From contig NZ_JAPYPC010000036.1 in the NCBI RefSeq assembly GCF_029937855.1, positions 1 through 33,360 of the forward strand: 33,360 nucleotides of DNA. The letters are read 5' to 3'. The notes beneath the pieces were generated by a model. The model made no database searches, was not told the origin of the DNA, and saw only the letters and a list, made by a program, of their open reading frames with translations. The position numbers were made by a program, and so were the translations under genes. Source of the stretch: Christiangramia sp. GTDB lineage: Bacteria > Bacteroidota > Bacteroidia > Flavobacteriales > Flavobacteriaceae. Positions 771 to 15,740 of this stretch are shown here, piece by piece. Position 1 is the first letter of the stretch. Each line of letters begins with the position of its first letter.

Positions 771-3700
771 TTAATCAAATTCTAATTCCTGTTCAGGATG
801 AATGTGCTCATAATCTGCTACCATCAGCTCCTCATAATTCTTTTCCTCTTTAGAAGAGAATTTCTCCTCCAGGCGTACAAAAATCATATATACCACCGGT
901 ACGATTACCAGGGTAAGGAATAACGATGATAATAATCCTCCAATAATTACAATTGCCAGACCATTATTCATCTCCGCAGCCGCTCCCGAGGCCAGTGCAA
1001 TAGGAAGCATCCCGAAAACCATGGCAATGGTCGTCATTAAAATTGGACGCAGCCTCGCATGGTTTGCCTGGATTAAAGCTGTTCTTATTTTTTCTCCATG
1101 GTCCAGCCTATGATTGGCAAAATCTACCAGTAAAATCGCGTTTTTAGCAACTAACCCAATAAGCATTATTATCCCCAAAATGGTGAAAATGTTTAAACTT
1201 TGGTTGGTAAGAGCCAGTGCCCATAATGCTCCAATGAAGGATAGAGGAATAGAGAACAGCACTATAAACGGCTTCACGAAATCATCATACAGTACCACCA
1301 TGATCATGTACACCAACATAATAGCTGCCAGTAAGGCAATTCCCAGCGTACCAAAACCTTCGCTTTGGCGTTCCATATCTCCGCCCCAGGTCCATTCCAC
1401 ACCTTTAGGCTGCTCGATATTCCCAAGTTTTTCTTCCCACTCCTGGGCCACTGCTCCCGTAGTTTTACCTACTGTTTGTGCCGAAACGGTTACAGAAGGC
1501 GAACGGTCGTAACGTTCAAGCAGGGAAGGGCCTGATTCATAATTAATATCCGCAAACTGGGCCAAATTAATCCTTTGCCCACTGTTATTTACAAACTGGA
1601 TATTTCTTACATCTTCTATATCATTTCTCGCTGCTTCATCAAAAATAATATTAATGTCATACTCGTTGTCTCCGGTTCTAAATTTATTGTCTGTATTGCC
1701 ACTAAACGCTGTGCGCAAAGTTTGCCCAACTGTGGCTACATTTAATCCCAGGGAAGCCATTTTATCCCTGTCTGCACTTACCGAGATTTCAGGATTACCA
1801 TCTTCCACACTTGTCTCCACTTCGGTGGCACCATCCACAGTCCGTAAGACTTCCTCAGCAGCCTGGGCATAGGCGAAAGCTTCTTCAAATGAATTACCAG
1901 TAACAGTCATTTGGAGTGGGGCTGCCTGGGCCCCCATTATTCCCACAGGGACGACAGTTACTTCAGCACCCACTAGTTTCTGCTCAAGATCACGTTGTAA
2001 TTTAGCGGAAAAGACATTGGTTTTATCTTCTCTTTCAGATCTGTCAACTAAAGTAACATTGATCTCAGATTTATTAGTGGTAGCCTGCGCAGCGCCCATT
2101 CCTCCACTACTGGACTGGCCAACTGTGGTAAGAAGACTCTCCACCTGTGGCATGTCCTGCAGATAAGCTTCTGCTTGTTGAGTGATAAAGTTGGTTTCTT
2201 CAATGGAGGCATCTTTATCAATTTCTAACTGAACAAGAAACTCTCCCCTATCTGTTTCCGGAAAGAAATCAGATCCAATATAGCCCATTGCAACAAGAGC
2301 AATAGAACTTACAAATAAACCAATCACTACCAGAAAAGTCTTAATTTTATTGTCAAGAGACCAGTTCAGGATATTTGTTACTTCTGCAGTAAACCAGGAA
2401 ATCCCTGCTTCGAACTTATTTATTATCTTTCCGAAGAAAGATTTATCGGTTATAAGCTCCAGTTTTCCATATCTGGAAAATAACCATGGCACCACCGTAA
2501 AGGAAACCAATAGGGACAAGAGGGTCGCAATGATTACCGTAACACAAAACTGCGCAATAATATTTGCCACAAGGCCGGTACTCATCGCAATAGGGAGGAA
2601 AACCACCACGATTACCAGGGTGATCGCTGTTACCGTGAACCCAATTTCTGAAGCACCGTCATATGCGGCACGGATTTTATTTTTACCCATCTCCATATGG
2701 CGATGAATATTTTCGATAACCACAATGGCATCATCCACCAGGATTCCCACTACCAGGGAAAGTGCGAGTAAGCTCATCAGGTTGAGGGTGTATCCCATCA
2801 AATACATTCCTATAAAAGTGGCAATAAGCGAAGTAGGAATGGAAACCATTACGATAAGGGCATTTCGATAGCTATGCAGGAAGAAAAGCATTATGAATGC
2901 TACAAGTGCAATAGCGATAAATAAATCTTTTATTACTGAATTTGCCGCTTCAAGTGTAAATTCTGAAGAATCATCTGCTATTGTTATCTGTACTCCCTGC
3001 TCGGCATATTGCTGCTCCATTTCATCAATTTTCTCCTGCACAAGTTCACTTACAGTCACCGCATTCGCATCGGTTTGTTTTTGAACCTGAAGTAAAATGG
3101 TATTTTGACGATCAATACGTGCAATCTTTTCTACTTCCTTTTGCGTATCCTGAACTTCGGCAACATCAGAAAGTTTAATATTCTGTCCGTTTTGAGAAGC
3201 TATTGTAAGATTTCTCAATTCCTCTACAGACTGAATTTTTCCAGAGAGCCGGATAAGCGTAGTATTCTCTCTGGTGGTAAGGTTTCCAGTAGGAAAATCC
3301 AGGTTTGAAGCACTTATTATTTGCTGCACCATTGGAACGGTAAGCCCGTAACCCTGAAGCCTGTCAGGATCCAAATTTACCCTGATTTCTCTTTCCTGTC
3401 CTCCCACAAGATTCACCTGTGCGACACCCCGAAGCCGTGAAAAGGCAGGTTCTATTTTTTCATCAATTAGATCATAAAGTTCACTTTCTGTGAGATTTGC
3501 GGTTACTCCCATACTCATTATAGGTAGATCTGAAATTGAGAACTGTGAGAGCGAAGGTTCCTCTACGTCATCAGGAAGATCAGAGCGAATGGCGTTTATT
3601 TTTCGCTGTGCTTCATTGAGCGAAAAATCGACATCCGCTTCGTTTTCAAATTCAATAGTCACCAACGACAGGCTTTCAAAAGATTTCGACTGGATCTTTT

Positions 3701-3932
3701 TAATGCTCTCAAGGGAAGACACTGCATCTTCTATTTTACGGGATACGGTGTTTTCCACCTCGGCAGGAGCTGCACCGGGATAAACGGTCATGACGGTAAC
3801 CACCTTTACTTCAAATTTTGGGATCAACTCATAGCTGAGTTGGCTATAGCTAAAAAGACCACCAATAATTAGTAATGCGAGCATTACAATTACAAGGCTG
3901 GGCCTTTTTATAGATACTTCTGCTAATTTCAT
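771..3932 (-). CDS. RND efflux transporter permease, HAE1 (AcrB/MexB-like) family
   Basis: The inner-membrane pump subunit of a tripartite efflux system; it exchanges protons for drugs or other amphiphilic compounds. At 1053 residues it has the usual length for the family. The first membrane segment is at about residues 13-30 and is followed by the first periplasmic pore/docking domain. Then come the central membrane helices, with the proton-relay aspartate pair D400-D401 in GILVDDAIVVIENIH, the second periplasmic domain, and a C-terminal helix bundle ending near residue 1030. The intact Asp pair marks it as HAE1-type rather than a heavy-metal pump. It is third in an operon after the outer-membrane channel and the adaptor (10-base gap to the adaptor). 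The substrate cannot be read from sequence. Confidence 0.95.
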   Translation of the reverse strand: MKLAEVSIKRPSLVIVMLALLIIGGLFSYSQLSYELIPKFEVKVVTVMTVYPGAAPAEVENTVSRKIEDAVSSLESIKKIQSKSFESLSLVTIEFENEADVDFSLNEAQRKINAIRSDLPDDVEEPSLSQFSISDLPIMSMGVTANLTESELYDLIDEKIEPAFSRLRGVAQVNLVGGQEREIRVNLDPDRLQGYGLTVPMVQQIISASNLDFPTGNLTTRENTTLIRLSGKIQSVEELRNLTIASQNGQNIKLSDVAEVQDTQKEVEKIARIDRQNTILLQVQKQTDANAVTVSELVQEKIDEMEQQYAEQGVQITIADDSSEFTLEAANSVIKDLFIAIALVAFIMLFFLHSYRNALIVMVSIPTSLIATFIGMYLMGYTLNLMSLLALSLVVGILVDDAIVVIENIHRHMEMGKNKIRAAYDGASEIGFTVTAITLVIVVVFLPIAMSTGLVANIIAQFCVTVIIATLLSLLVSFTVVPWLFSRYGKLELITDKSFFGKIINKFEAGISWFTAEVTNILNWSLDNKIKTFLVVIGLFVSSIALVAMGYIGSDFFPETDRGEFLVQLEIDKDASIEETNFITQQAEAYLQDMPQVESLLTTVGQSSSGGMGAAQATTNKSEINVTLVDRSEREDKTNVFSAKLQRDLEQKLVGAEVTVVPVGIMGAQAAPLQMTVTGNSFEEAFAYAQAAEEVLRTVDGATEVETSVEDGNPEISVSADRDKMASLGLNVATVGQTLRTAFSGNTDNKFRTGDNEYDINIIFDEAARNDIEDVRNIQFVNNSGQRINLAQFADINYESGPSLLERYDRSPSVTVSAQTVGKTTGAVAQEWEEKLGNIEQPKGVEWTWGGDMERQSEGFGTLGIALLAAIMLVYMIMVVLYDDFVKPFIVLFSIPLSFIGALWALALTNQSLNIFTILGIIMLIGLVAKNAILLVDFANHRLDHGEKIRTALIQANHARLRPILMTTIAMVFGMLPIALASGAAAEMNNGLAIVIIGGLLSSLFLTLVIVPVVYMIFVRLEEKFSSKEEKNYEELMVADYEHIHPEQELEFD

Positions 3933-3942
3933 TTGTTTTTCT

Positions 3943-4998
3943 TTATTTTATGATTCTCACCGCTGCATTGTCAGTAAGATTGATTTGTCCACTGGTCACG
4001 ATCACGTCACCCTCTGAAAGACCGTTGGTAACCTGAACCTTATCGCCATAATTTATACCTGTCTTAATGGTAGTAAGATGTGCGATACTATCTTTTACAA
4101 GAAATATTTTATTATCACTTACACTACCAACAAATGCTTTTCTTGGGATGGTCAAAATGTTATCCAGCCCTGCTTCGTTAAACACTGCAGTAGCATACAT
4201 TCCTGCTCTTAAATTTCCTCCGGAATTGTCCACAGTAATTTCCACAGGAAACTTAAGGGCTCCATTAGAGGCAGGCGCAATGAAACTGATCTTCCCACTA
4301 ATGGTATCTTTGGTCACGCTGGGTACCATTTTTACAATGTCGCCCCTTTGTAACTGGCTTACCAAAGCTTCATCTACCTCTACGCGTAATTTAAGGGAAG
4401 AAATATCCACTACTTCTAGGATTGGATTGCCCGGAGCTACAACCATTCCTACTTCCACCATTTTTTCATTTACAATTCCGCTGATTTTGGAGCGGATGTT
4501 GGTGTCTCCGGAGCTTATTTGTGCAGATTGATACTGTGCTCTCGCATTTTCTACCTGCAACCTCGCCTGGTCCAGTTGTGCTGCGGTTACACCTCCTGTT
4601 TTAAAGGCTGCTTCGAACCTATTCAAACTGGAAATGGCATTATCAAGATTGGCTTTTGCATTAGTCACGTTTACATTAGTCTTATCACCAGAAAGCTTTG
4701 CTACAACCTGTCCCTCTTTGACCCGGCTTCCTTCCTCAACATAAATTGCCACAACCTGTCCATTCATTTCGGCTGAAATCTGCACCCTTGTCTGAGGTTC
4801 ATAAGTACCATTTACAGTGAACATTCCACTAAGGCTTTCTTTTTGAACGGTGGCAGTTCTTACAGCTACTTCTGAATTTTTCTGAGCAACTATTTCCAGT
4901 TCTTCTTCATTGTTTTTTTTATTGTTTTGCAGGATCAGGAAGAAAGCTACGGCGACGCCGATTAGCACTACAATGGTTATGATTGTTTTCTTTTTCAT
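3943..4998 (-). CDS. RND efflux periplasmic adaptor (membrane fusion protein)
   Basis: A 351-residue HlyD/AcrA-type adaptor that bridges the pump and the outer-membrane channel. Residues 5-23 form an N-terminal membrane anchor. A lipoyl-like half at about 70-105 (ISAEMNGQVVAIYVEEGSRVKEGQ) is followed by a short alpha-helical hairpin rich in Ala, Gln and Asn at about 110-165. The second lipoyl half, a beta-barrel and a C-terminal membrane-proximal domain follow. The start codon lies one base after the stop of the tolC-like gene, so the two are translationally coupled. There is no lipobox cysteine, so anchoring is by the N-terminal helix rather than by lipid. Confidence 0.93.
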   Translation of the reverse strand: MKKKTIITIVVLIGVAVAFFLILQNNKKNNEEELEIVAQKNSEVAVRTATVQKESLSGMFTVNGTYEPQTRVQISAEMNGQVVAIYVEEGSRVKEGQVVAKLSGDKTNVNVTNAKANLDNAISSLNRFEAAFKTGGVTAAQLDQARLQVENARAQYQSAQISSGDTNIRSKISGIVNEKMVEVGMVVAPGNPILEVVDISSLKLRVEVDEALVSQLQRGDIVKMVPSVTKDTISGKISFIAPASNGALKFPVEITVDNSGGNLRAGMYATAVFNEAGLDNILTIPRKAFVGSVSDNKIFLVKDSIAHLTTIKTGINYGDKVQVTNGLSEGDVIVTSGQINLTDNAAVRIIK

Positions 4999-4999
4999 C

Positions 5000-6340
5000 T
5001 TAAAGCTTATTTTCTTTTAGTATTTCTAGTTTCCCCTGTGACTTTAATAGCTCCACTTCGGCTAATTTATAATCAAGGCGGGCATTGGTTAGGTTATTTT
5101 TTGCTTCGGCGAGATCCCTTTCAGCATCAAGCATGTCATTTAAGCTTGCCAGTCCCAATTCATAATTGTTTTGGCTGTCTTCGAGCACTCCCTGCGCAAG
5201 CTCTACATTTTCTACCTGGGTTTCGATCGTGAGAAAACTGTTCTCTAGCTGTGCCACAGCATTGCTGTAGGCCAGTTGTAACGCAAGTTCTGTTTCCTGG
5301 AAATCTGCCTGCGCCTTTTCAATGTCGATCTGGTTTTGTTTTACCTTGGATTTGGTAGCAAAACCGTTAAAAATGGGAATTCTGATGTTAATTCCAACAG
5401 ATGCAAGATCCGACCAGAAAACGCCTTTATCTTCACCGTTCCAAAGGGGTACCTCATCACCCTGGCCAAGCCAGCCATAATTAGCGGAAAGAGATGCCGA
5501 AGGATAATATTCGGCAAGGGTCGCTTTTTTCTGCCAGTTTAAAAGCTCGATCTGCTTTGCCAACAATTGAAGCTCTGTTCTTTCAGTCATTTCCAGACTT
5601 TCATTGGGGAGCAATGAAGGCTGAAAATTTTGTTCTGGTAGTTTTATTTCCTGACTAATAGGCATCCCGATCATAAATTTCAAGGTATTTTCACTCAGCT
5701 CAACGGCATTAATCATCCGCTGCCTGTTTGCGATAAGATTATTCAATGCTACTTTACTTCTGTCATAATCAATCTTTTTTGCCAGTCCGGTTTCATAAAG
5801 ACCTTTTACGATTTCAACAGTTTGCTCTGTTAGCTCCAGATTGCTCTCCAAATTTTCAAGCATTTGCAGGGTTTGATATACCTGGTAATATGCAGTTGCA
5901 ACCTTTTCAATAATTTCTTCGTTCGTAAGCTGTGCATTCAGTTGATAAAATTCCTTTGTGGATTTAGCCGCTTTAAGGCCGGTAAATACCGCCTGGTCAA
6001 ACAGTGTTTGCGTCAACTGCGCCGTGGCAGTCGAGTTCCATTTTCTTCCAAATGCCACAGCTATATCTTCGCCCGGCCTTCCAAAGAATTCCCCGGGCAG
6101 GATATTCTCCTGCAAAAGAGGATTATAAGATGTATTTGCACTTCCGTTAAGATGTGGCAGTGCGTTAGATCTTACTTCGGCGATTTGCGCATTGGCCTTA
6201 ATAATATCCAGACGTGCTTTTTCTGCTTCGGCTTTATGATCTAAAGCATAAGAAACAGCCTCTGGCAGGCTTAAAATAACTGGTTCCTGCCCAGAAGTAA
6301 GGCTCGTTACCAGAAGAAAACATATCAGTATTTTTTTCAT
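5000..6340 (-). CDS. TolC-family outer-membrane efflux protein
   Basis: A 446-residue TolC/OprM-type channel protein. A signal peptide is seen at about residues 1-17 (MKKILICFLLVTSLTSG) and is probably cleaved just before QEP. The remainder shows two homologous long-helix repeats rich in Ala, Leu, Glu and Asn, for example near 145-225 and 345-440, with AKNNLTNARLDYKLAEVELLKSQGKLE near the end. It is the first gene of the efflux operon, and the operon promoter is about 40 bases upstream. Length and architecture are normal for the family. Confidence 0.93.
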   Translation of the reverse strand: MKKILICFLLVTSLTSGQEPVILSLPEAVSYALDHKAEAEKARLDIIKANAQIAEVRSNALPHLNGSANTSYNPLLQENILPGEFFGRPGEDIAVAFGRKWNSTATAQLTQTLFDQAVFTGLKAAKSTKEFYQLNAQLTNEEIIEKVATAYYQVYQTLQMLENLESNLELTEQTVEIVKGLYETGLAKKIDYDRSKVALNNLIANRQRMINAVELSENTLKFMIGMPISQEIKLPEQNFQPSLLPNESLEMTERTELQLLAKQIELLNWQKKATLAEYYPSASLSANYGWLGQGDEVPLWNGEDKGVFWSDLASVGINIRIPIFNGFATKSKVKQNQIDIEKAQADFQETELALQLAYSNAVAQLENSFLTIETQVENVELAQGVLEDSQNNYELGLASLNDMLDAERDLAEAKNNLTNARLDYKLAEVELLKSQGKLEILKENKL

Positions 6341-6381
6341 TTAAACTTTATTTTTAATTTCTGCTTTTCTGAAATCAGGCG

Positions 6382-6412
6382 CAAAGGTAAACAAAGGAAA
6401 CTATGATACAAA
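6382..6412 (-). promoter_or_regulatory. Bacteroidota-type promoter of the efflux operon
   Basis: Read on the minus strand, a -33 element TTTG (6409-6412) is followed by exactly 19 bases and then the -7 element TACCTTTG (6382-6389), matching TAnnTTTG. Transcription would start near 6375, about 35 bases before the tolC-like start codon. This is one of the best promoter matches in the window. Confidence 0.75.
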
Positions 6413-6420
6413 AATAGTTT
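6398..6420. promoter_or_regulatory. Candidate TetR operator over the efflux promoter
   Basis: A perfect 7-bp inverted repeat AAACTAT (6398-6404) / ATAGTTT (6414-6420) with a 9-bp spacer overlaps the -33 element of the efflux promoter. Position and symmetry suit a TetR-type dimer. Assigning it to the regulator at 60-659 is inference. Confidence 0.45.
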
Positions 6421-6760
6421 TATTGTTTTTTTTAAATTAGTCTCCAAGTAAAAATGAAAATTTTTTTTTAATGGTGGAATGCCCCACTAGAACCGGTTGT
6501 TTTCGTTCTGATCAAATAGGATCATGTCAATTAAAAATGAAGAAATTTATGCCTATGATTTAAAAGGAAGTCATGTACTGACCCAAGATCATTTCTACTA
6601 TATGATACAAACGATCTCATATATGATCGGGATCCAATAGCATCTGTCATACGTCAGGACGCTGTAGGAAACAGGTGTCTGAGCTGGTAGTCGACCTATC
6701 ATTATCACCAAAAATTGTACAATGTTACTAGTTTAGTTAAGTTATCTGTAAGCTTCATTG
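6421..6760. other. Gene-poor relic region with broken reading frames
   Basis: No complete gene is seen. One short frame, 6524-6640 (+, 38 codons, beginning MSIKNEEIYAYDLKGSHV), is in the same frame as the Cas12f-like gene that follows. It is separated from that gene by several stops. A second open stretch in another frame ends at a stop near 6691 (residues DRDPIASVIRQDAVGNRC). The switch between frames suggests decayed coding sequence, possibly the lost 5' part of the Cas12f-like gene or an older gene. I do not recognise either peptide. Confidence 0.4.
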
Positions 6761-7467
6761 ATGAATTTCAAAAGAGATCTGGCTTTTCCTTTTGATATGG
6801 AAGGTATCAGTGGATTAACCTATAACGAAGAGAAAAAAGCATTCTGTTTTCGTTTATTTTCAGTTCCTATGAAAACCTACTTAGGAAAAGATTACACCGA
6901 TAAACGTAGATTGCTAGAGCGGTTAGTAGCAGGCGAAACTAAGCTATGCGCCTCGCAGATTCAACTGAAAGATAATAAAACCTATTTACTGGCGGTTTTT
7001 GAAATTGAAAAGGAAAGGCATACCCTGAAACCGGATGTTATTGCCCAGGCTTCTTTATCCCTTGAATACCCGATTGTTGTAAAAATCGGAATGACAAAAC
7101 TTAGCATTGGTACCAGGGAAGAGTTTTTATATCGGAGGTTAGCCATACAGGCTGCACGGAAAAGGGCAGAGGCAGGAGCTACTTTTTCCAGATCAGGACA
7201 AGGACGTAAAAGAAAAACAAAAGCAGTGCAAAGATTCCATGAAAAGGAAAAGAATTATGTTAGTCATCGCCTCCACCTATACAGCCGGAAATTAATTGAT
7301 TTCTGTGTGAAACACCAAGCAGGAACGCTAATTTTAATAAACCAGGAAAATAAGATAGGCATTGCCAAAGAGGAGGAATTTGTCCTAGAAATTGGAGTTA
7401 TTATGAGCTGACCACTAAAATAAAATACAAGGCTGAGAAAGCCGGGATTGAACTTATTATAGATTAA
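6761..7467 (+). pseudogene. Truncated, frameshifted, nuclease-dead Cas12f/TnpB-like protein
   Basis: Two overlapping frames join into one family-like protein of about 235 residues. From ATG 6761, codons 1-209 run to EEEFVL and frame is then lost; a one-base loss near 7386 moves the rest (RNWSYYELTTKIKYKAEKAG...) to 7387-7467. Residues 27-85 look like the WED beta-domain of Cas12f. Residues 102-135 correspond to RuvC-I, but the expected GIDxG reads VVKIGMTKLSIG with no acidic residue. Residues 155-195 carry the helical segment RFHEKEKNYVSHRLHLYSRKLIDF and the RuvC-II strand, where the catalytic Glu is replaced by Ile193 (TLILINQ). The zinc ribbon and RuvC-III Asp are absent, and about 150-200 N-terminal residues usual for Cas12f are missing. 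A TTG at 6758 could also start the frame; a stop at 6749 blocks anything earlier. Family membership is from motif recognition only. Confidence 0.7.
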
Positions 7468-7470
7468 AGT

Positions 7471-7567
7471 TTTGGTTATGAGGGTGCTTGTACACCCGTA
7501 ATGTGAGGCATTAGTTGCACTCACTAAATGCGTAAAGCATATACAACGGCGTGGGCTTTCTTATTTT
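7471..7567 (+). ncRNA. Candidate Cas12f/TnpB-type guide RNA (scaffold, repeat, guide)
   Basis: Three small hairpins begin within 20 bases of the Cas12f-like stop: GGGTG/CACCC (7482-7486 with 7493-7497), GTGAG/CTCAC (7503-7507 with 7520-7524), and ATGC-GTAAA-GCAT (7528-7540). Between the first two lies TAATGT (on GTAATGTGAG). Segment 7514-7547 is a 34-nt repeat-like unit that begins GTTGCA and ends ATACAAC. From memory, Un1Cas12f1 tracrRNA has a GCTTG hairpin followed by TAATGT and GAG, and its repeat begins GTTGCA and ends CAAC, so the order here is the same. The next 20 bases (7548-7567) would be the guide. There is only one repeat copy, so it is not an array. A TnpB omega-RNA is the main alternative. 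Confidence 0.5.
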
Positions 7568-7757
7568 ATTTTCTTCGTGCATGGAACCTTTTTACAAATT
7601 CCATCTGGTTCTGGAACAAACACAAATATTTATTTTACGAGGAAGTCACAATTTATGGCCCCATATCTCCCATAACTAACCTTGCGCGTGGTTCCTGTGC
7701 TGTTTTTATAGTGTACGGAAAGTTAAGCGTAAAGTAAAAACAGCATAGGGCGCATAC
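7568..7757. other. Non-coding flank with a long inverted repeat, island left edge
   Basis: No convincing gene. A 69-codon frame (7528-7737, +) overlaps the RNA candidate and is rich in Trp and Phe without any family signature. The stretch holds ATGGAA/TTCCAT (near 7579-7602) and a perfect 11-bp inverted repeat TGCTGTTTTTA (7698-7708) / TAAAAACAGCA (7735-7745) with a 26-base loop. It also has GCATA/TATGC at 7752-7767. The 11-bp repeat lies just past the last gene of the mobilization operon, so it may be its terminator or part of an element end. Confidence 0.4.
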
Positions 7758-8216
7758 TTACTTATGCCACTGTTCCAGCCAATTGCAATAACCTTCTTTT
7801 ATTTCCAGATTTTCCGAGAAAAAGATTTGATAGGATTCAAGTTTTGATTCAGAAATAGTTCGATAGATCCAAAATTTCTCTCCTTCGGTTATTTTGGAAG
7901 AGTAAATAAAATATCCCAATCCGGATAAAAGCAGGATCAGAATACTCCCAAATAACACAAGAATATAGTTGGGGATCAGACTGGCTCTTTCCAACTGGAT
8001 ATTGATATCTCTAAATAATTCATTTTTTAATTCATCAGCCTCTTCCTGTTTTTGAAGAAAGCTCTTTAGATTCTCATCAATAGCAGCTGTACTGATAGGA
8101 ATACTCATTTTATTGAGCTTTTTGGATAATAAATCCAGTTTTAAAATAGAAACTTTAAAATCGGCCATTTCATCAGCCATCAGTTCCATGATCTCATCTA
8201 GTTTTTTCATACTCAT
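7758..8216 (-). CDS. Small membrane protein of the mobilization operon, function unknown
   Basis: A 152-residue protein. The N-terminal 80 residues are charged and probably coiled-coil (MKKLDEIMELMADEMADFKVSIL). One membrane segment follows at about 83-105 (IPNYILVLFGSILILLLSGLGYFIY). A short polar tail contains EGYCNWLEQWHK. It begins 6 bases after the relaxase stop, so it is the last gene of the mobC-mobA unit. By position it may help the relaxosome reach a conjugation channel, but no known domain was recognised and that role is inference. Confidence 0.7.
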   Translation of the reverse strand: MSMKKLDEIMELMADEMADFKVSILKLDLLSKKLNKMSIPISTAAIDENLKSFLQKQEEADELKNELFRDINIQLERASLIPNYILVLFGSILILLLSGLGYFIYSSKITEGEKFWIYRTISESKLESYQIFFSENLEIKEGYCNWLEQWHK

Positions 8217-8222
8217 TAATAT

Positions 8223-9101
8223 TTAGTAGCCCATTCCCATACCCATACCGGTATCAAGTCCTCGCTTGATCACCTGTTTAGCCAGATCTTTAGCTATTTT
8301 ACTGGCCATGTTTGTGCTAAGTTGTACGGTGTTATTCACCAGCTTTAAAGTCTTAGGTACTTCCCTGAGTTTACTGTAACAATTATTCTGAGAAATTTCT
8401 GCGATTAGTTTACTACCACTCATGGACCGGTGGACCTCACTTCCTTTTAAATTGGCGCCCTGATATTCGAACCGGAAGCCCTGCAGCTGATTGGATTTGT
8501 TGATACTGGGAATGACCTTTACATTACGTGCATTCATTTTTTGTATGTACTCATCCAGGGTTTTGGGCCTTGATTCCAGAACTTTGTTATGGATATGTTT
8601 AATGGCCAGTCGCTGCCATTTTAACTCCTGTAGCTTTCCCTGTTGTACTTCTCTTACCCGGGTTAGCCCTAATTGTTTGGCTACATTATCTGCGGCGATC
8701 TGACTTCGTTTTCCTATAAAGCTATCTTTATAAACTTCCCCTTTTAAGCTGATACGATTTGCATAGATGTGAATATGGGTATGTTCCTTGTCTTTATGGA
8801 CAAAACCAATGGCCTGATTATTCTGGAGATTCATTTCCTTTATAAATCCCTGGGCAATCTTTTCTAAATCCTGGTGGCTTAATTCCTTCCCGTCTTTGAT
8901 GGTTGGACTTACTATAAAACTCAGGGTATTTTTAGTACAGCGGTCATTTTGAGATTGAATGATCTTAAACTCATCGGTGATCTGCCCGGGCGTATCACCG
9001 GCCAGGTGTTGTTTGAGAACTACTTCTGCTTCTTTTTCCTGATTCCATCCATAGTCGAGGGAAGCCTTGGTGCTTGCTATAGACTGTCCTTTGCCAATCA
9101 T
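8223..9101 (-). CDS. mobA: Relaxase/mobilization nuclease (MOBP-like)
   Basis: A 292-residue relaxase that should nick one strand at oriT and pilot it during conjugal transfer. The three-His metal motif is clear at residues 102-111 (HKDKEHTHIHIYANRI; H102, H107, H109 and H111). A tyrosine near the N terminus (Y17 in DYGWN) is a candidate nicking residue. The C-terminal quarter ends in a Gly/Met repeat (GMGMGMGY). The start overlaps the mobC stop by 4 bases (9098-9101), indicating coupled translation. At this length it lacks the extra C-terminal helicase or primase domains of larger relaxases. No coupling protein or type IV secretion gene is present, so the element would need a helper. Confidence 0.9.
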   Translation of the reverse strand: MIGKGQSIASTKASLDYGWNQEKEAEVVLKQHLAGDTPGQITDEFKIIQSQNDRCTKNTLSFIVSPTIKDGKELSHQDLEKIAQGFIKEMNLQNNQAIGFVHKDKEHTHIHIYANRISLKGEVYKDSFIGKRSQIAADNVAKQLGLTRVREVQQGKLQELKWQRLAIKHIHNKVLESRPKTLDEYIQKMNARNVKVIPSINKSNQLQGFRFEYQGANLKGSEVHRSMSGSKLIAEISQNNCYSKLREVPKTLKLVNNTVQLSTNMASKIAKDLAKQVIKRGLDTGMGMGMGY

Positions 9102-9394
9102 TTTTTAAAGTTTTGAAGGTGCGTTCTAATTTCTTCAGCGAGATCTTCAACGTTTTTCGCCAGCCGGGGATCACTTTTTTTAAACATATTAGTGATTCGC
9201 ATAAAATTGTTTTTATACTGGATCAGTAGCTGGTAGCATTCTACTTGTTCCGGAGTTAATCGTTCCACGATATTGATTTTAAAAGCGGTAGCCCGGAGAT
9301 ATTCTGAAAGGGAGATTCCTGCCCGGGCCGCTCTTTTTTTGAGTAGCTTTTTCTCGTAGATCGAGCAGCGTATCTGGATGTATTCCCGTTTCAT
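9098..9394 (-). CDS. mobC: Mobilization accessory protein MobC
   Basis: A 98-residue relaxosome protein that binds near oriT and assists the relaxase. The N terminus looks like a ribbon-helix-helix (KREYIQIRCSIYEKKLLKKR followed by AGISLSEYLRATAF). The C-terminal helix contains TNMFKKSDPRLAKNVEDLAEEIR. Size, charge and position immediately before mobA match the MobC family. An oriT-like inverted repeat lies 34 bases upstream of its start. Confidence 0.85.
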   Translation of the reverse strand: MKREYIQIRCSIYEKKLLKKRAARAGISLSEYLRATAFKINIVERLTPEQVECYQLLIQYKNNFMRITNMFKKSDPRLAKNVEDLAEEIRTHLQNFKK

Positions 9395-9427
9395 TTTTAA
9401 TATTTATTTTCTTTGCAACCTCCGGGC

Positions 9428-9468
9428 GCAAAGCAAGATTGTCATGACAATGACACATCTTGCTTTGC
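9428..9468. promoter_or_regulatory. Candidate oriT: perfect 12-bp inverted repeat upstream of mobC
   Basis: GCAAAGCAAGAT (9428-9439) and ATCTTGCTTTGC (9457-9468) form a perfect 12-bp inverted repeat. The 17-base spacer itself contains the palindrome TGTCATGACA. It sits between the primase and mobC genes, where relaxase origins usually lie. The nick site cannot be fixed by eye. The repeat could also serve as a MobC operator. Confidence 0.6.
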
Positions 9469-9501
9469 TACTCAAAACGATTTATGGCCACTGTAAATCG
9501 A

Positions 9502-10353
9502 CTACCCACAAGCTAGTTTTTCATTAAGGTCTTTATAGTTTTTATAGCGATTACTCTGGTCTTTTAAGTGGGGATAATACTGAAATAATTTCTTTGCGTT
9601 TTTCTTCCCGGATTGATCATTATCCAGGTAGAGATCAACCGACGTATAGTTTTTGAAATAGGATGTTATCTGTTGTAAAAATGAAAGCGAGTTTAAAACG
9701 ATGATATCCGAACCATTTAATTCCTCCGGATATATTTCAGCAATGGATAATAGATCAAACATTCCTTCACAGACGACCAGGTTATCATTTTCATTCTGGA
9801 GGTAGGTATAGCTTTTAGGAGAACTGGAAGTTTTAAAATAGAGACTGCGCAGTTCCCAGCCACCATCCTTATTTTGAAGTCCGATGGCATAATAAGATTT
9901 TTCCCGGCATTCGTACCAGACTTCCTTACAGTAGCTTCTGGCAACTTCAAGGGAAATACCTCTAGATCTTACATACTTCTTTAGGTAGCTCTTGGTGATC
10001 GGTTTTACTTGTATGATGGTATTACCGCATTCCTTTTCTGAAGTATCGGTTATAGTACCCTGGAAGCTAAATACAGGCAATTCATCCGAGAGAAACTGCA
10101 GTGCTTCTCCAACGCTGCAATTTGATAGTAGACACACCAGATCAATGATATTCCCACCTTCACCAATTCCGAAGTCATACCATCGGTTCAGTTTTAAAGA
10201 CACTTTGAAAGAGGCCTGTGTTTCTGACCGAAGGGGACTCAGAAACCAGGCTTCTTTCTCCGTTTTCCTACTGGGGAAGTGGCCCAATTTTGCGAGGGTT
10301 TCCACGATGCAAATATTGCGGGCTCTTTCACAGGTTAGTTTTTGAAGTTTCAT
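9502..10353 (-). CDS. Toprim-domain DNA primase-like protein
   Basis: A 283-residue protein of the DnaG-like N-terminal plus Toprim type common in Bacteroidota mobilizable elements. Residues 5-90 resemble the primase N-terminal fold (RSETQASFKVSLKLNRWYDFGIGEGGNIIDLVCLL), but the CHC2 zinc cysteines are not visible. The Toprim motifs are present: E196 in LVVCEGMFDLL, and D244 and D246 in VDLYLDNDQSGKKNA. It probably primes lagging-strand or transfer replication of the element together with the VapE-like helicase. An iteron-like cluster lies between the two genes. Confidence 0.85.
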   Translation of the reverse strand: MKLQKLTCERARNICIVETLAKLGHFPSRKTEKEAWFLSPLRSETQASFKVSLKLNRWYDFGIGEGGNIIDLVCLLSNCSVGEALQFLSDELPVFSFQGTITDTSEKECGNTIIQVKPITKSYLKKYVRSRGISLEVARSYCKEVWYECREKSYYAIGLQNKDGGWELRSLYFKTSSSPKSYTYLQNENDNLVVCEGMFDLLSIAEIYPEELNGSDIIVLNSLSFLQQITSYFKNYTSVDLYLDNDQSGKKNAKKLFQYYPHLKDQSNRYKNYKDLNEKLACG

Positions 10354-10365
10354 TTTTCTATAATT

Positions 10366-10551
10366 TTAGTTACCTACTTACCTTTTCCAGTCATAGCAAG
10401 GCTTTTCAAATAAAAATGCTAGTTACCTTTAGTTACCTATCTTACCTAAATTCCAGGTTTTAGGTAACTTAGGTAAGATGAATTAAGTTTTACTTACCTG
10501 GTCTTAAGCCTTGTCATAAAAGGGATGATCTAACTTTAGGTAAGTAGGTAA
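10366..10551. repeat. Iteron-like cluster of TTACCT/AGGTAA repeats, candidate origin
   Basis: About ten copies of TTACCT or its complement lie in 186 bases. Forward copies are near 10370, 10378, 10423, 10433, 10442 and 10494. Reverse copies are near 10462, 10471, 10538 and 10546. Many are spaced 8-10 bases apart. Two nested inverted repeats stand out: ATCTTACCTAA (10439-10449) with TTAGGTAAGAT (10469-10479), and TTACCTAAA (10442-10450) with TTTAGGTAA (10459-10467). The position between a primase and a VapE-type helicase suggests the replication origin of the excised element. An alternative is an operator array for the HTH protein. Confidence 0.6.
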
Positions 10552-10558
10552 GTAGTAT

Positions 10559-11743
10559 TTATGTTATTTCCCAAGGGCTCGATGTAAACAATTGTTTTGT
10601 CAAGAAACCATAGACCTGTCGTTTAGGGTGTTTCACTCGTTGAAAGTTCAAAGCATTCAGAGCTCTGCCGATAAAAACTACATTCAATCTTATATTGAGG
10701 CATGAAAGTTTAGCTAGAATTTCGGAAGAGGTATGAAAATCTTTTATATCCTGGCTCGGTTCAAAATATTTGGTGATTAATTCTTCTTCCGTAGATAACT
10801 GACGAAACTCGCGATTTCTTTCTTCGTTTTCCTCAATATCTTTTAGAGTTAGTTCCGGAGAAAAATCAGGATCAGAATAGGCCAAATGATATGCCTGTGA
10901 CCAAATCTGGTTAACCTGAATTTCCTTGGAATAATTAAAATCAATTTTCCTAAGAAGTTTAAAGCATAACCAACGGACAGAACCTGTTTCGTCATTCAGG
11001 AAATTAGCCTGATTGGTTGAACCAATAAATGAACAGGTCCTAGATAGCGTTGAATTTTTTCTGTCATAAGGCAATCGTTCATTTATGAATGTTTTAGAAA
11101 AATATGCTTTAAGACTATTTATGTCTTTTTTGTTTAGCATGGAAAGTTCATCGAGGTTAATAATAAAATTTCGGGTTAACTGAATTCGGGCATCTTTATC
11201 ATTACTAATGTCTTCTGCTATATATTTAGAGAGAGGGGGAGGACATATAAAGCGACACCAGGTTGATTTGCCTGAATTCTGTTGGTTGTGGACTAAAACT
11301 AGACATTGCTTATTAAAATAACTCTCCTCCAGGGCACATCGAATAGTTCTAACCAACCATTTTTTAAAATGATAGGAGAAATTATCAGAATCCTGAACTG
11401 GAACATAGGAACATAATTTGGAAATATAATCTTGACCATCCCAATCTTCTAAATCTTCAAAATATTTACTAATAGGATTAAAATGCGGAACAACATATGA
11501 TCTTAAAAAGATCTCAAGTTTACTGGGAGGGACCTCAATATTACATTTGGCCAATTCAATAAGAACTGAGTTAACTTCAAGTTCTTCCCAATTATTAGAA
11601 TTTTTCAATGAGATTTGAAAATCCTGGCTTATCTCATTATATCGAATTTGGTATTTATCAAATAAATATTCCTCCATATAATCGTAAATGGTTTTCTTCT
11701 TGGGATTCTCGACCATATAGATATTTGGTGGTTTACTGTCCAT
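10559..11743 (-). CDS. VapE-like P-loop ATPase/helicase
   Basis: A 394-residue protein of the virulence-associated E family, superfamily-3-like replication helicases found on phage satellites and integrative elements. Walker A is at about 152-160 (HNQQNSGKST, Lys159). It lacks the usual first glycine of GxxGxGK. Walker B is FIINLDEL (D198, E199). Other family marks are DARIQLTRNFIINLDEL and the sensor-like SFIGSTNQANFLNDETGSVRW. The N-terminal 120 residues contain the family's WDGQDYI segment. It lies 15 bases after the excisionase-like gene in one minus-strand operon and probably unwinds the element origin. Confidence 0.88.
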   Translation of the reverse strand: MDSKPPNIYMVENPKKKTIYDYMEEYLFDKYQIRYNEISQDFQISLKNSNNWEELEVNSVLIELAKCNIEVPPSKLEIFLRSYVVPHFNPISKYFEDLEDWDGQDYISKLCSYVPVQDSDNFSYHFKKWLVRTIRCALEESYFNKQCLVLVHNQQNSGKSTWCRFICPPPLSKYIAEDISNDKDARIQLTRNFIINLDELSMLNKKDINSLKAYFSKTFINERLPYDRKNSTLSRTCSFIGSTNQANFLNDETGSVRWLCFKLLRKIDFNYSKEIQVNQIWSQAYHLAYSDPDFSPELTLKDIEENEERNREFRQLSTEEELITKYFEPSQDIKDFHTSSEILAKLSCLNIRLNVVFIGRALNALNFQRVKHPKRQVYGFLTKQLFTSSPWEIT

Positions 11744-11758
11744 AACTGATCAAGAAAA

Positions 11759-12043
11759 TTATCTCCTGTTTCGGAAAGTATAGTTAAGCGCTTCCTGTTG
11801 AATTTCAGCTTTTGATTTACTGGGACTGGATAGCAGCCATTCATCCAGTTTTTCTCTTGAGAAGTAAATCATTTTACCACGAGGTTTTGAAAATGGAATG
11901 TCTCCGTTGGCAGTTAGTTTATACAGGTAGCTACGTGAGATACCAGTATACTCCGCAGCCTCTTCAATGGTTAACACATTCTTATTGGCGCGAACCATAT
12001 TTTCTATTCGGTCAAGTTTTTCAAGTATTTGTAATGAGTCCAT
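11759..12043 (-). CDS. Excisionase-type helix-turn-helix protein
   Basis: A 94-residue DNA-binding protein with an HTH_17/excisionase-like winged helix at about residues 24-70 (TIEEAAEYTGISRSYLYKLTANGDIPFSKPRGKMIYFSREKLDEWL). An N-terminal coiled segment (residues 1-22) may dimerise. It leads the replication and mobilization operon. In such elements this protein directs excision by bending DNA at the att site or activates the replication genes; the sequence does not separate these roles. Confidence 0.85.
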   Translation of the reverse strand: MDSLQILEKLDRIENMVRANKNVLTIEEAAEYTGISRSYLYKLTANGDIPFSKPRGKMIYFSREKLDEWLLSSPSKSKAEIQQEALNYTFRNRR

Positions 12044-12134
12044 GATTAAAGTGTTATTAGTTAGAGATTGATTTTCGCTTTATGAGCGATTCATGGAGCC
12101 AAACTAGCAAGTGAAATAAAAGGGAAGGTGTGCT

Positions 12135-12248
12135 ATGCGTGCTGGGTATACAAATCTATTTGAATGGTATGTAAGAGAAAATATGTGGCAGGAGGATAAT
12201 AGGGATAATGGAGTTCGTATATTTATGAAAAAGAAAGACCTTCCTTAA
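12135..12248 (+). CDS. Possible small protein of 37 residues
   Basis: An ATG frame (MRAGYTNLFEWYVRENMW...KKKDLP) lies in the 290-base gap between the divergent excisionase-like and hipB genes. It is preceded by AGGGAAGG 9 bases upstream, a plausible ribosome binding site. The composition looks protein-like, with no low-complexity bias. No family was recognised. It may be a leader peptide or chance frame. Confidence 0.25.
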   Translation: MRAGYTNLFEWYVRENMWQEDNRDNGVRIFMKKKDLP

Positions 12249-12308
12249 AACATTGCATTCTAATAGTGAAAAATATACCATAATGTAGTTTATTTATATC
12301 ATAATATA

Positions 12309-12325
12309 TATATTTGATGCAAATA
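12309..12325 (+). promoter_or_regulatory. hipBA -7 promoter element and overlapping operator
   Basis: TATATTTG (12309-12316) matches the Bacteroidota -7 consensus TAnnTTTG and would start transcription about 10 bases before the hipB start. A perfect inverted repeat TATTTG-ATG-CAAATA (12311-12325) overlaps it, as expected for autoregulation by HipB. No good -33 TTTG was seen at the right distance, so promoter strength is uncertain. Confidence 0.5.
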
Positions 12326-12333
12326 AGCGACAT

Positions 12334-12621
12334 ATGAATTCTAAAAAAGCATTAATTCTTCCGAGATATCAAAAGATATTCGCAGGATTAGGAGAAAATA
12401 TTAAGCTTGCTCGTAAACGCAGAAAACTAACTGCTGAACAGGTGGCTGAACGAGCGGGCATCCATCGTGCAACATTACATAGAGTAGAAAAGGGAGATCC
12501 TTCCGTTGCAATAGGTATCTATTTTAATGTACTGAAAGTATTAAATCTTGAAAAGGATTTTGCTAATCTGGCAAATGATGATAAACTTGGTCGTAAACTT
12601 CAGGACCTGGATTTACTCTAA
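12334..12621 (+). CDS. hipB: HipB-like XRE-family antitoxin
   Basis: A 95-residue DNA-binding protein with a canonical XRE/Cro helix-turn-helix at about residues 17-70 (LGENIKLARKRRKLTAEQVAERAGIHRATLHRVEKG). It ends 3 bases before the HipA-like toxin kinase, so the pair forms a type II toxin-antitoxin operon. HipB normally neutralises HipA by binding and represses the operon through inverted repeats; a matching palindrome lies at 12311-12325. Confidence 0.85.
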   Translation: MNSKKALILPRYQKIFAGLGENIKLARKRRKLTAEQVAERAGIHRATLHRVEKGDPSVAIGIYFNVLKVLNLEKDFANLANDDKLGRKLQDLDLL

Positions 12622-12624
12622 ATT

Positions 12625-13881
12625 ATGGCGGAAGGAAAAATCAATATATACGTGTATGCCGACTGGAAAGGACTAGAAGCTCCCACCGAGATCGGAGTAC
12701 TTTCAGCACAATTTGCTAAAGGCAAAAAGGCATTCAGCTTTGAGTACAACAAAGATTGGTTGAAGCGCAATTCTTATCAATTACTGGACCCTGAAATTAA
12801 TTTTTTTTCCGGGCCTCAGTATCCGACAGATAAAGAAAATTTTGGAGTTTTCTTAGATAGTATGCCCGATACATGGGGTAAAACTTTGATGAAGAGGAGG
12901 GCGGCACAGGAGGCCAGATCTAGAAATGAAAAAATACCCAAACTCTATGAAATTGATTACTTGTTAGGTGTTTATGATGAAAGTAGAATGGGGGCTTTAC
13001 GATTTAAGACCGATAGGAAGGGACCATTTTTAGATAACGATACTAAGAATCCAACTCCGCCGTGGTCCTCTTTGGGCGATCTGCAGGAGGCGGTAAATCA
13101 CATAGAAAGTGATTCTGAAACTAATACTATCAGACAATGGCTTGCTGTACTGATTGCTCCAGGATCTTCTCTTGGCGGTGCCAGACCAAAGGCCAATGTA
13201 TTAGGGAAAAATGGAGATCTTTGGATTGCAAAATTTCCTTCTAAAACGGATACAATTGACAAGGGGGCATGGGAATTCCTAACATATAGACTAGCCCTTG
13301 ATTGTGGGATAGAAATGGCAGAATCGAAAATTGAAAAAATTACAGGACCTTACCATACATTTTTGACAAAGAGGTTCGATCGTGAAGACGGACAAAGAAT
13401 TCATTTTTCTTCAGCAATGACAATGACCGGTAATACCGAAGAATCTTTAAAAAATGTTAGTCCAAGTTATCTTGATATCGTTGATGTAATTGAAAATTAT
13501 GGTATTAATGTGGAGGAGAATTTACATCAATTATGGCGCCGTTTAATTTTTAATATCGCTGTATCAAATACTGATGATCATTTAAGAAATCACGGCTTTA
13601 TAATGAATGAAAAAGGATGGGAGTTATCACCGGCTTATGATATAAATCCTTCTGTGGAAAAGGATGGACTAGCATTGAATATCGATGCAGACGACAATGC
13701 ACTCGATTTAGATCTAGCCATAGGCGTTGGAGAATATTTTCGTTTAGGGGAAGATGATATGAATCAGATTATTGAAGAAATTTTATCTGTAATAAGTAAT
13801 TGGAAACACTATGCAAAAAAGATTGGTATTGCCCAGAAAGAGCAATTAATTATGGAACCCGCTTTCAAAGTGGAACTATAA
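12625..13881 (+). CDS. hipA: HipA-like serine/threonine kinase toxin
   Basis: A 418-residue HipA-family kinase of full length. The N-terminal subdomain covers about residues 1-120. The Gly-rich loop SSLGGARPKA is at 181-190. The catalytic loop is NTDDHLRNHGF (about 315-325, with D317 and D318), and the metal-binding Asp is D339 in SPAYDI. All key residues are intact, so an active toxin is likely. In Escherichia coli HipA inhibits growth by phosphorylating glutamyl-tRNA synthetase; the target here is unknown. It is cargo of the mobilizable element, probably acting in its maintenance. Confidence 0.88.
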   Translation: MAEGKINIYVYADWKGLEAPTEIGVLSAQFAKGKKAFSFEYNKDWLKRNSYQLLDPEINFFSGPQYPTDKENFGVFLDSMPDTWGKTLMKRRAAQEARSRNEKIPKLYEIDYLLGVYDESRMGALRFKTDRKGPFLDNDTKNPTPPWSSLGDLQEAVNHIESDSETNTIRQWLAVLIAPGSSLGGARPKANVLGKNGDLWIAKFPSKTDTIDKGAWEFLTYRLALDCGIEMAESKIEKITGPYHTFLTKRFDREDGQRIHFSSAMTMTGNTEESLKNVSPSYLDIVDVIENYGINVEENLHQLWRRLIFNIAVSNTDDHLRNHGFIMNEKGWELSPAYDINPSVEKDGLALNIDADDNALDLDLAIGVGEYFRLGEDDMNQIIEEILSVISNWKHYAKKIGIAQKEQLIMEPAFKVEL

Positions 13882-13888
13882 AAAGCCT

Positions 13889-14608
13889 TTATTTAAACTT
13901 CTGAAAAATGGCTTCTAATGCTTCATGTTGCTTAGAAATAGGAGAGCGGGTAGGAGCATTTTTCAACGTGTTATAATTGTATTTCTTGCCATCAGGTCTA
14001 ATAAGTAATCCAGAGGTAACAAATAGATTTTTCAAGGTTATTGAATTGTGTGGAAATGTTTTAATTAGGTGATCATAAAATTCTCTGCAACTAGGACCGT
14101 CCATTTTTAAATGAATTCTCGAGCGTTGATTACCCCAATCCTCTAGTAAAACGTTTTTAAAATCTAGTAGGGAAGTTGCTTCCTGGTCAATTAAATCAAA
14201 GCGTACCATTTCATTATATAATTGAGTTAAATGAATATCCGAAATGGATAGATTGAAATTATTTGGAGACTTATCCGAATTAGAGATTATTTTTTTTAAG
14301 AAAGAAGATTTAAAATTTTCTCTCCAGGAAGTAAGGCAGAAATATAATCCTAGCAAATAGACTAATACTATTATAAGCTGGACGGCCAAATTTGAAGTTT
14401 GATTTGAATGATGAAAATTAGACATCAAATGCATAAAACTTAGTCCAGTAAAATGAAATAATAATCTTGGTTTTTCTACTGAATTGACTAAGCTTAAATT
14501 TTCATTTAAAAAGTGTGAATAAATTACGGGGAGATAATGAATAGCTAAACGACTATAGACGTATATAAATGCAAAGAAAGATAGATATGTAATTATATCA
14601 AAATTCAT
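13889..14608 (-). CDS. Unknown membrane protein adjoining the integrase
   Basis: A 239-residue protein with two or three predicted membrane segments in the first 95 residues (about 5-24, perhaps 47-63, and 74-94). The C-terminal part of about 145 residues is soluble and ends KYNYNTLKNAPTRSPISKQHEALEAIFQKFK. It overlaps the integrase 3' end by 11 bases on the same strand, so it is translated with it, and it converges on hipA with a 7-base gap. The soluble half resembles C-terminal domains often seen in Bacteroidota element cargo, but I cannot name the family. Its role is unknown. Confidence 0.65.
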   Translation of the reverse strand: MNFDIITYLSFFAFIYVYSRLAIHYLPVIYSHFLNENLSLVNSVEKPRLLFHFTGLSFMHLMSNFHHSNQTSNLAVQLIIVLVYLLGLYFCLTSWRENFKSSFLKKIISNSDKSPNNFNLSISDIHLTQLYNEMVRFDLIDQEATSLLDFKNVLLEDWGNQRSRIHLKMDGPSCREFYDHLIKTFPHNSITLKNLFVTSGLLIRPDGKKYNYNTLKNAPTRSPISKQHEALEAIFQKFK

Positions 14609-15740
14609 AATCCATTTGTAACTCTGGAATTAAATAGGCTGCTTCTTTTTTCTTTTTGTCTACGATTTTAGCATATACCTGAGTGGTTCTTATTTCTTTA
14701 TGGCCGAGTACTTTTGAAACCGTATAAATATCTGCTCCGTTTTCAAGTAATAGTACTGCATGAGTATGTCTGGCGCTATGAAAGGTAATATGCTTGGTAA
14801 TACCGGCCCGCATGCACCACCTTAGAATTTCTGCATTAAAATGTGCACCATACTTCAAACCTTGAAAAACCCGATCATTTTCTTTTCTTCTTTTTCCTAG
14901 TAAATTCCTGGCCTGACCTGAAATATACTGGTATTCCTGACCGGCAGTCTTTTTCTGTTTAAAAATAAGTCGGGAGCCTTCATCTTCATCTCGAACTTCG
15001 GCCCAGTTCAATTTATTAATATCGCTCCATCTTAAACCGGTTAAGCAGCTGAATAGAAATGCATTTTTTAGTATTTGATGTTTACATCTGGCTTTAGCAA
15101 GCCCCTGTAATTCTTCATGAGTTAAATACTCTCGGGAGGTTTCACCCTGGGCATATCCTTTGACCGTGGCAGCGAAATTTCTTCGCGTATAGCCATCATT
15201 AAAAGCTTGCCGTAAAGCTGCTTTAAATTTATTGTAATAAGTATACTTTGAGTTTTGAGATAGAGGAGTATTCGATTTTGTTCGGGATTTATGATTTAAA
15301 AACTTTTTGAAGCCTAGAACAAAATCTTCATCAACATCTTCAAATGTTATTTTTCTCTTACCTATATAATCCTCAAGGTGATTTTGAGCAGCATCCCAAT
15401 TGTCGTAATTACCTTTGCTTTCATAACGCTCCTCTTTAAGTTTATCATAATAAGTGATAAAGAGTAGTCTATCCTTATTTTTATCTTTTATACCATATTT
15501 GCCTTGTGCATATTCAGCCTTACGGATTGATAGCACCTGCTCGGCTCTCAACAGGACCTCAGCATTTTCTTGGCGTTCTTTAGTTGTCTTTGGTTCAATA
15601 ATAAGGTATTCTTTTAAATATTCAAATTCCCTATTATGTTCAATCTTACCTTTATCATTCTGGATGAAGCCTTTATAATATTCAATATAAAGGCTATACT
15701 TTCCAGTCTTTAATTTTTTCTTTTTGAGTTTGATTTTCAT
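14598..15740 (-). CDS. int: Tyrosine-type site-specific integrase
   Basis: A 380-residue phage-type integrase. The arm-binding domain is at about residues 1-75, a SAM-like core-binding domain at about 95-190, and the catalytic domain follows. The active-site set is complete: R237 (LTGLRWSDINKL), K264 region (KQKKTAGQ), H321 and R324 (HSARHTHAVLL), H347 (VLGHKEIRTTQVY) and Y356. It should integrate and excise the element. It is the outermost gene of the island and lies about 220 bases from the 3' end of mnmE, with clustered repeats between them. Confidence 0.93.
   Translation of the reverse strand: MKIKLKKKKLKTGKYSLYIEYYKGFIQNDKGKIEHNREFEYLKEYLIIEPKTTKERQENAEVLLRAEQVLSIRKAEYAQGKYGIKDKNKDRLLFITYYDKLKEERYESKGNYDNWDAAQNHLEDYIGKRKITFEDVDEDFVLGFKKFLNHKSRTKSNTPLSQNSKYTYYNKFKAALRQAFNDGYTRRNFAATVKGYAQGETSREYLTHEELQGLAKARCKHQILKNAFLFSCLTGLRWSDINKLNWAEVRDEDEGSRLIFKQKKTAGQEYQYISGQARNLLGKRRKENDRVFQGLKYGAHFNAEILRWCMRAGITKHITFHSARHTHAVLLLENGADIYTVSKVLGHKEIRTTQVYAKIVDKKKKEAAYLIPELQMDYEF

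Follow-up and report, generated by a model that had tools for sequence, protein, structure and literature searches.

A guide RNA beside a decayed dCas12f-sigE locus in Christiangramia, and the structured susC leader that its intact relatives probably target

Relation to known RNA-guided systems

In dCas12f-sigE systems, dCas12f, a guide RNA (gRNA) and sigE together initiate transcription, and the R-loop determines how far away the start lies; targets follow a 5'-G TAM rule. The RNA of the Cas12f1 nucleases consists of hairpins followed by the guide, and in TnpB/omegaRNA systems the RNA lies right after the gene; the TldR proteins are TnpB-derived RNA-guided regulators. Here we describe a stretch of 33,360 nucleotides from Christiangramia sp. 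(contig NZ_JAPYPC010000036.1), referred to as the window, in which a gRNA follows the remains of a dCas12f gene. We take this locus to be a decayed member of the known dCas12f-sigE RNA-guided transcription system, because two intact loci in the same genome match the solved 9n9c and 9n9q chains.

The two intact loci, C46 and C32, each have sigE directly upstream and a gRNA directly downstream of dCas12f, and C32 has three complete gRNAs in a row. This is also the layout of the solved dCas12f-sigE system (PDB 9n9c, 9n9m, 9n9o, 9n9q), and in alignments with it the intact paralogues cover positions 1-364 of 365. A profile of the family matches chain 9n9c ("Nuclease-deactivated Cas12f") with an E value of 3.3e-198, and the sigma partner matches chain 9n9q_C ("RpoE") at 3e-86; the sigma proteins of the intact loci match sigma-70 regions 2 and 4 in Pfam. 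The window copy differs in having lost the N-terminal third, the late reading frame and the linked sigE that is present at C46 and C32, so that it is homologous to 9n9c as a broken fragment only, and its gRNA alone looks intact. A scan with two peptide patterns of a contig collection covering 84,980 species (by the collection's own description), which may leave out genomes very near that of the window, yielded 57 relatives; judging by the record titles, most belong to flavobacterial genera. Three gRNAs occur also in L052, and in L006 (7140-7545) three complete gRNAs stand in tandem behind one dCas12f, two of them with guides unlike the family core.

Type V-F Cas12f1 nucleases (7c7l, 7l48, 9nzo) are distantly related in sequence (E 4e-6 to 6e-50), and the dCas12f family differs from them in being nuclease-dead and shorter and in having no array and a nearly fixed guide. 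Aligned to the active Cas12f 9nzo, the profile has no Asp in the RuvC-I Asp column (Ser in the window, Thr in C46, Ala in C32), and the protein stops some 90 residues sooner. Judged by sequence at the RuvC positions taken to be catalytic, the family is nuclease-dead. With TnpB/omegaRNA and TldR the family has in common an RNA right after the gene and regulatory use, and the NCBIfam model guided_TnpB matches it below its cut-off; it differs in that its closest solved relative is dCas12f, in its sigma partner and in the expectation of activation, not repression. An earlier reading of the window, made from its letters without database searches (the sequence-only reading), had favored regulation over adaptive immunity; the nuclease-dead character of the family and the sigma factor beside it bear this out.

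The gRNA and the dCas12f remnant

The gRNA scaffold occupies 7480..7547 on the + strand and consists of three hairpins, all on the same strand: hairpin 1 (GGGTG/CACCC) at 7482..7497, with stems 7482-7486/7493-7497; hairpin 2 (GTGAG/CTCAC) at 7503..7524, with stems 7503-7507/7520-7524, which holds GTTGCA; and hairpin 3 (ATGC/GCAT) at 7528..7540, with stems 7528-7531/7537-7540, 5' of ATACAAC. Folding and covariation support each of them and confirm the three hairpins that had been reported; the letters given for 7471-7567 are all present as placed. The scaffold folds at -22.2 kcal/mol (z = -3.1), and 1 of 200 shuffles was as stable. Across 67 aligned scaffolds, those of the window and L081 among them, 98.3% of helix cells are paired, and in 4 of the 14 pairs both sides have changed; double-change cells number 13 vs 4.2 in shuffles, a level reached by 0/500 shuffles, and a weaker covariation measure that takes in further pair types was reached by 55/500.

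A family covariance model (R2), built on the 67 scaffolds with the window's own included, matches the window once, at this scaffold, with 82.5 bits (E 5.9e-17). Rfam gave no family for the gRNA at its gathering score and none near that score even at E<=10. The genome as a whole has five such gRNAs, so that the claim of a single copy is true of the window and untrue of the genome. In 57/57 relatives, including the two with the same remnant (L080 and L081), a gRNA match lies 3' of the gene, and the description of the RNA as tracr-repeat-like, single and with a built-in guide was right.

The likeness to Un1Cas12f1 that had been seen in TAATGT (7499-7504) and GTTGCA (7514-7519) did not hold up. 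At the first spot nearly every relative has TAAGGT or something like CAAGGT, and at the second the letters vary; both motifs are peculiar to the window copy and its sister copies, and because they are absent from almost all relatives, the likeness at these two spots is a coincidence. Nor does GTTGCA...ATACAAC form a separate 34-nt repeat unit, since its opening stretch is part of hairpin 2. Codon entropy at the 3' end of the gene (0.67, vs 0.66-0.87 in the other bins) gave no support to the idea that the gRNA reaches into the gene there. Between 6341 and 7760, a sigma-70-type promoter scan found 5 promoter-like sites vs 4.0 (SD 1.9) in shuffles, and a terminator scan found 2 terminator-like sites vs 1.0 (SD 1.1).

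The gene beside the RNA is a dCas12f remnant at 6755..7387 (+), corresponding to residues ~137-347 of the C46 paralogue with 71% identity (tblastn) and without an intact 5' part; C46 residues 1-136 have no tblastn match at the locus. An open frame of 217 aa spans 6758-7411. After one frame break, the remnant ends in another frame at 7387..7464 (+; residues ~348-373). Christiangramia bathymodioli (L080) and Gillisia mitskevichiae (L081) have the same truncation and frame break in the same surroundings, so a sequencing error is unlikely. Between the window and L080, remnant and gRNA are identical; from L081, the window differs at 6/711 remnant sites, 2/72 scaffold sites and 0/20 guide sites. We found no trace of sigE in the window (best tblastn E 0.13, elsewhere in the window). 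At 113 near-invariant residues the remnant deviates 17 times, vs 0-11 in 50 relatives. What the sequence-only reading took for a Cas12f-like gene next to the RNA is therefore a 5'-truncated, frameshifted dCas12f remnant without sigE, a fossil and not a working Cas12f gene. Further remnants or broken copies of dCas12f (L214, L215, L216 and L082) likewise have a gRNA directly downstream.

A nearly fixed guide and its target leader

The guide, GGCGTGGGCTTTCTTAT, lies at 7548..7564 (+), with the family core GCGTGGGCTCTCTTAT at 7549-7564; the extra leading G before the core is found also in other relatives, L058, L072 and L075 among them. A guide-like segment does follow the scaffold, as had been proposed for 7548-7567, but the suggested comparison of related loci puts the end of DNA similarity to the intact C46 locus at 7564, 16-17 nt into the guide. 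Similarity to the three C32 gRNAs ends at 7548, 7553 and 7570. The core recurs with at most 3 mismatches in 16 in 51 of 72 gRNAs and with at least 5 in 19; with the reversed core as a control, no gRNA of the 72 had fewer than 7 mismatches. Guide conservation drops after ~19 nt, and target matches end at 16-18 nt at most. The guide is almost fixed across genera and not locus-specific. Some gRNAs have quite different guides (e.g. L039, L057, C32a, C32b), and for such divergent guides no targets were found. The genome search with the 20-nt guide, also proposed earlier, gave only two matches, both at 3 mismatches and in surroundings unlike the target element described below; a near-full target search with the C46 guide gave none at <=3 mismatches. 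Of the first guesses at targets, C59 was rejected, as it falls in a gene resembling gyrB by eye.

In the genomes of 24 relatives, the core at <=2 mismatches gave 67 matches, vs 9 with the reversed pattern. Most of the non-gRNA matches whose surroundings were inspected lie in one conserved element; L098 (G009), where the surroundings differ, was rejected as a target element. Stretches fetched from 25 genomes contain 46 distinct elements. A susC-like gene lies at most 3.5 kb downstream of 27, for 25 of these within ~720 bp, and the downstream neighbours of the rest are sigE-dCas12f (10), another sigma gene (2) or other genes (7). The element also lies ~1 kb upstream of dCas12f, before sigE, in 19/57 relatives, some of whose stretches are incomplete. 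An element model built from the same genomes matches 20 of the 25 and leaves 5 without an element. Two elements occur in the window's genome, on C55 (70611-70714) and C49 (26114-26218), each followed by SusC and, on C49, by SusD too; the window itself has none. A small ORF lies on the opposite strand 80-330 bp beyond 38/46 elements (e.g. L154, L168, L175, L224), and one of four such ORFs tested had a Pfam HTH match above cut-off. At L128, L129 and L140 (second site), the upstream half of the element is swapped for other DNA just before ACCCGG/ACCTAGG, perhaps by an insertion element that prefers the palindrome; the upstream replacing letters of L128 and L129, as displayed, are alike.

G precedes the core in both of the genome's own targets and in most listed targets (T in L173). 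From the TAM side, the contiguous match of the genome's own guides to its own targets is 12 for the window, 10 for C46, 9 for C32c, 5 for C32b and 2 for C32a, with a 2-nt indel after position 12 of the window guide. Across the 20 genomes that have both guide and element, the best such match is at least 8 in 11 and at least 12 in 6, vs 1-4 with reversed guides; it is 5 in G003, G005, G009, G012 and G018, and 2 in G002. Co-adaptation of guide and target within genomes was not seen (927/2000 genome shuffles reach the observed mean), and since guides match the targets of other genomes just as well as those of their own, the guide is generic.

The element is a conserved leader of ~180 nt, mostly before susC, with two mutually exclusive covarying folds in an alignment of 41 leaders (L136:2912-3122, L224:4091-4303 and L225:4027-4240 among them). 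One is a long rod that includes a 5' hairpin; of its 45 pairs, 92.9% of cells are paired, and double-change cells number 177 vs 61.9 shuffled, with 0/500 shuffles reaching this. Its weakest helix, helix 5, has 75% of cells paired. The other is a terminator-like stem (16 pairs, 97.4% of cells paired, 23 double-change cells vs 7.4 shuffled, again 0/500). As both structures were drawn from one aligned sequence, their shares of paired cells are biased toward high values; sliding the pairing partners destroys the support for both. The strand matched by the guide is common to the two folds and forms the 5' strand of the terminator-like stem, which in many leaders is followed by a T-rich run (by eye). 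The genome's own two leaders fold at about -51 kcal/mol as the rod with 5' hairpin; for the terminator part taken by itself the value is about -30 to -31. Some 80 bp upstream, 33/41 leaders, not including that on C49, have a TAnnTTTG box, which according to PMC9723704 is the consensus for flavobacterial sigma-A.

In having rod and terminator-like stems that exclude each other, the target leader resembles the riboswitches and attenuators in Rfam; unlike them, it matches no Rfam family, two tRNAs in L131 being the only matches at the gathering score and nothing coming near that score at E<=10. Among the literature search results listed, no known susC leader of this kind was recognized. Its strong covariation and lack of an Rfam match make the leader, quite apart from dCas12f, a candidate for a new cis-regulatory RNA, and we infer that it may act as an attenuator. 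Across 120 genomes of the family, the window's own included, dCas12f occurs in 6 (full-length in 5, a fragment only in G045), the gRNA in the same 6, and the target element, the core of the leader, in 22, with all 6 dCas12f genomes among them (Fisher p 2e-5; 2 of the 6, the window's own and G118, which has the same places as G006, served as sources of the models). As 16 of the 22 element genomes have no dCas12f match, the element has another primary role, and its presence in 22 genomes vs 6 makes it older or wider than the protein. dCas12f is layered over it.

Proposed mechanism and the standing of the window copy

Taken together, these data make it highly probable that the window RNA is the gRNA of a decayed dCas12f-sigE locus whose intact kin are guided to leaders of susC genes and of sigE-dCas12f operons, with bypass of a terminator as the inferred outcome. 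At intact loci, nuclease-dead Cas12f would bind the three-hairpin RNA and be led by the guide to DNA that has a G on the TAM side. RNA polymerase would be recruited by the linked ECF-like sigma factor, and transcription would start downstream of the guide site. Targeting of a conserved leader before susC genes and sigE-dCas12f operons would explain why the guide is nearly fixed. Within that leader, the terminator-like stem, whose 5' strand the guide matches, would compete with the rod-like stem, and a start downstream of the guide site would yield an RNA without the terminator's 5' strand, so that termination could be bypassed; covariation and geometry are what suggest the terminator and bypass steps. 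The guide might instead pair with the leader RNA itself, an alternative to DNA targeting with which a computed duplex of -17.9 kcal/mol is consistent. The most inclusive version, in which the near-universal guide is the terminator 5' strand of a bistable leader of susC operons and of the system's own operon, dCas12f-sigE serves as an attenuator bypass over an older cis-RNA switch and orphan gRNAs such as 7480-7564 feed the regulon in trans, is speculative and, in our estimate, rather unlikely.

To act at all, the window gRNA would have to be expressed and taken up by the dCas12f of C46 or C32. That it is instead an inert fossil, gene and gRNA decaying together and the RNA unmade or unused, we consider an evenly balanced proposition. 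The window has neither a target element nor sigE, and G022 and G023 carry the same remnant with no full-length dCas12f found in either. Set against L081, the scaffold (2/72) compared with the remnant (6/711) gives no sign of extra constraint on the scaffold, and in three independent remnants elsewhere the scaffolds deviate at 5, 4 and 2 of 47 conserved columns. Yet the window's hairpins are intact, and its scaffold, with 2 deviations at the 47 columns (4 in L081), is within the range of relatives, 13/65 of which reach or exceed that level, whereas the protein, at 17/113, is outside it (the sites are too few to give a difference in rate). The + strand of 6341-7480 has no TAnnTTTG box, but since only 10/71 other gRNAs have one 126-150 nt upstream, its lack is not telling. 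Somewhat less probable, and still a serious contender, is an orphan gRNA working in trans, loaded onto the dCas12f of C46 or C32 and directing sigE to the susC operons on C55 and C49. Two intact effectors are at hand in the genome, its guide has the longest TAM-side match of the five to both targets, those targets precede SusC (with SusD on C49), and a gRNA is kept at all 7 remnant loci in 25 genomes (5 independent). Weighing on the other side are the indel between guide and target past position 12, the lack of a visible promoter or selection signal, and the partial decay of other remnants' gRNAs.

Two further readings carry little weight. The 217-aa frame, kept in the window, L080 and L081, might encode a functional short protein that works with the window gRNA, but it lacks ~136 residues at the N terminus as well as the correct C terminus, conserved residues have changed in excess and there is no sigma partner, and we think this very improbable. 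Type V-F CRISPR-Cas immunity with a one-spacer array, suggested by the Cas12f-like protein family and the repeat-like GTTGCA...ATACAAC, was rejected as having a negligible chance of being right: there is no tandem array within 6300-8300, the extra C32 gRNAs are complete scaffolds and not repeats, the guide is nearly identical across genera, and the RuvC-I Asp is missing by sequence. The 16 window proteins scanned by Pfam include no cas1 or cas2, in agreement with the sequence-only reading. What the favored reading, that of a gRNA from a decayed dCas12f-sigE locus, adds is a family-level picture that links a single, nearly fixed guide with a defined target and a set of likely regulated nutrient-uptake operons. 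The kind of system was already known; the nature of the target is the unexpected gain. Should it prove to be an attenuator, this would be a case of an exapted CRISPR protein layered over an older RNA switch.

Beyond the guide, a spacer at 7565..7757 (no strand assigned), where similarity to C46 has ended, leads to mobilization genes and is common to L080 and L081, which carry the same element. Between 7758 and 15740 lie relaxase, NikA-like, Toprim/primase-like, VapE-like, HTH_17, HipA-like and tyrosine integrase genes, adjoined by mnmE at 15963-17378, and the region 7758-15740 looks like a mobilizable element; no direct repeats were convincing as its ends among the 20 of 46 repeat families listed. 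The neighborhood of the element is nearly identical to ~13400 in C. bathymodioli and G. mitskevichiae. On the other flank, the RND pump and adaptor genes at 771-6340 differ from L080 at 81/4228 sites, tolC at 2/1341 and the rest to ~13400 hardly at all, perhaps marking a recombination boundary near 5000.
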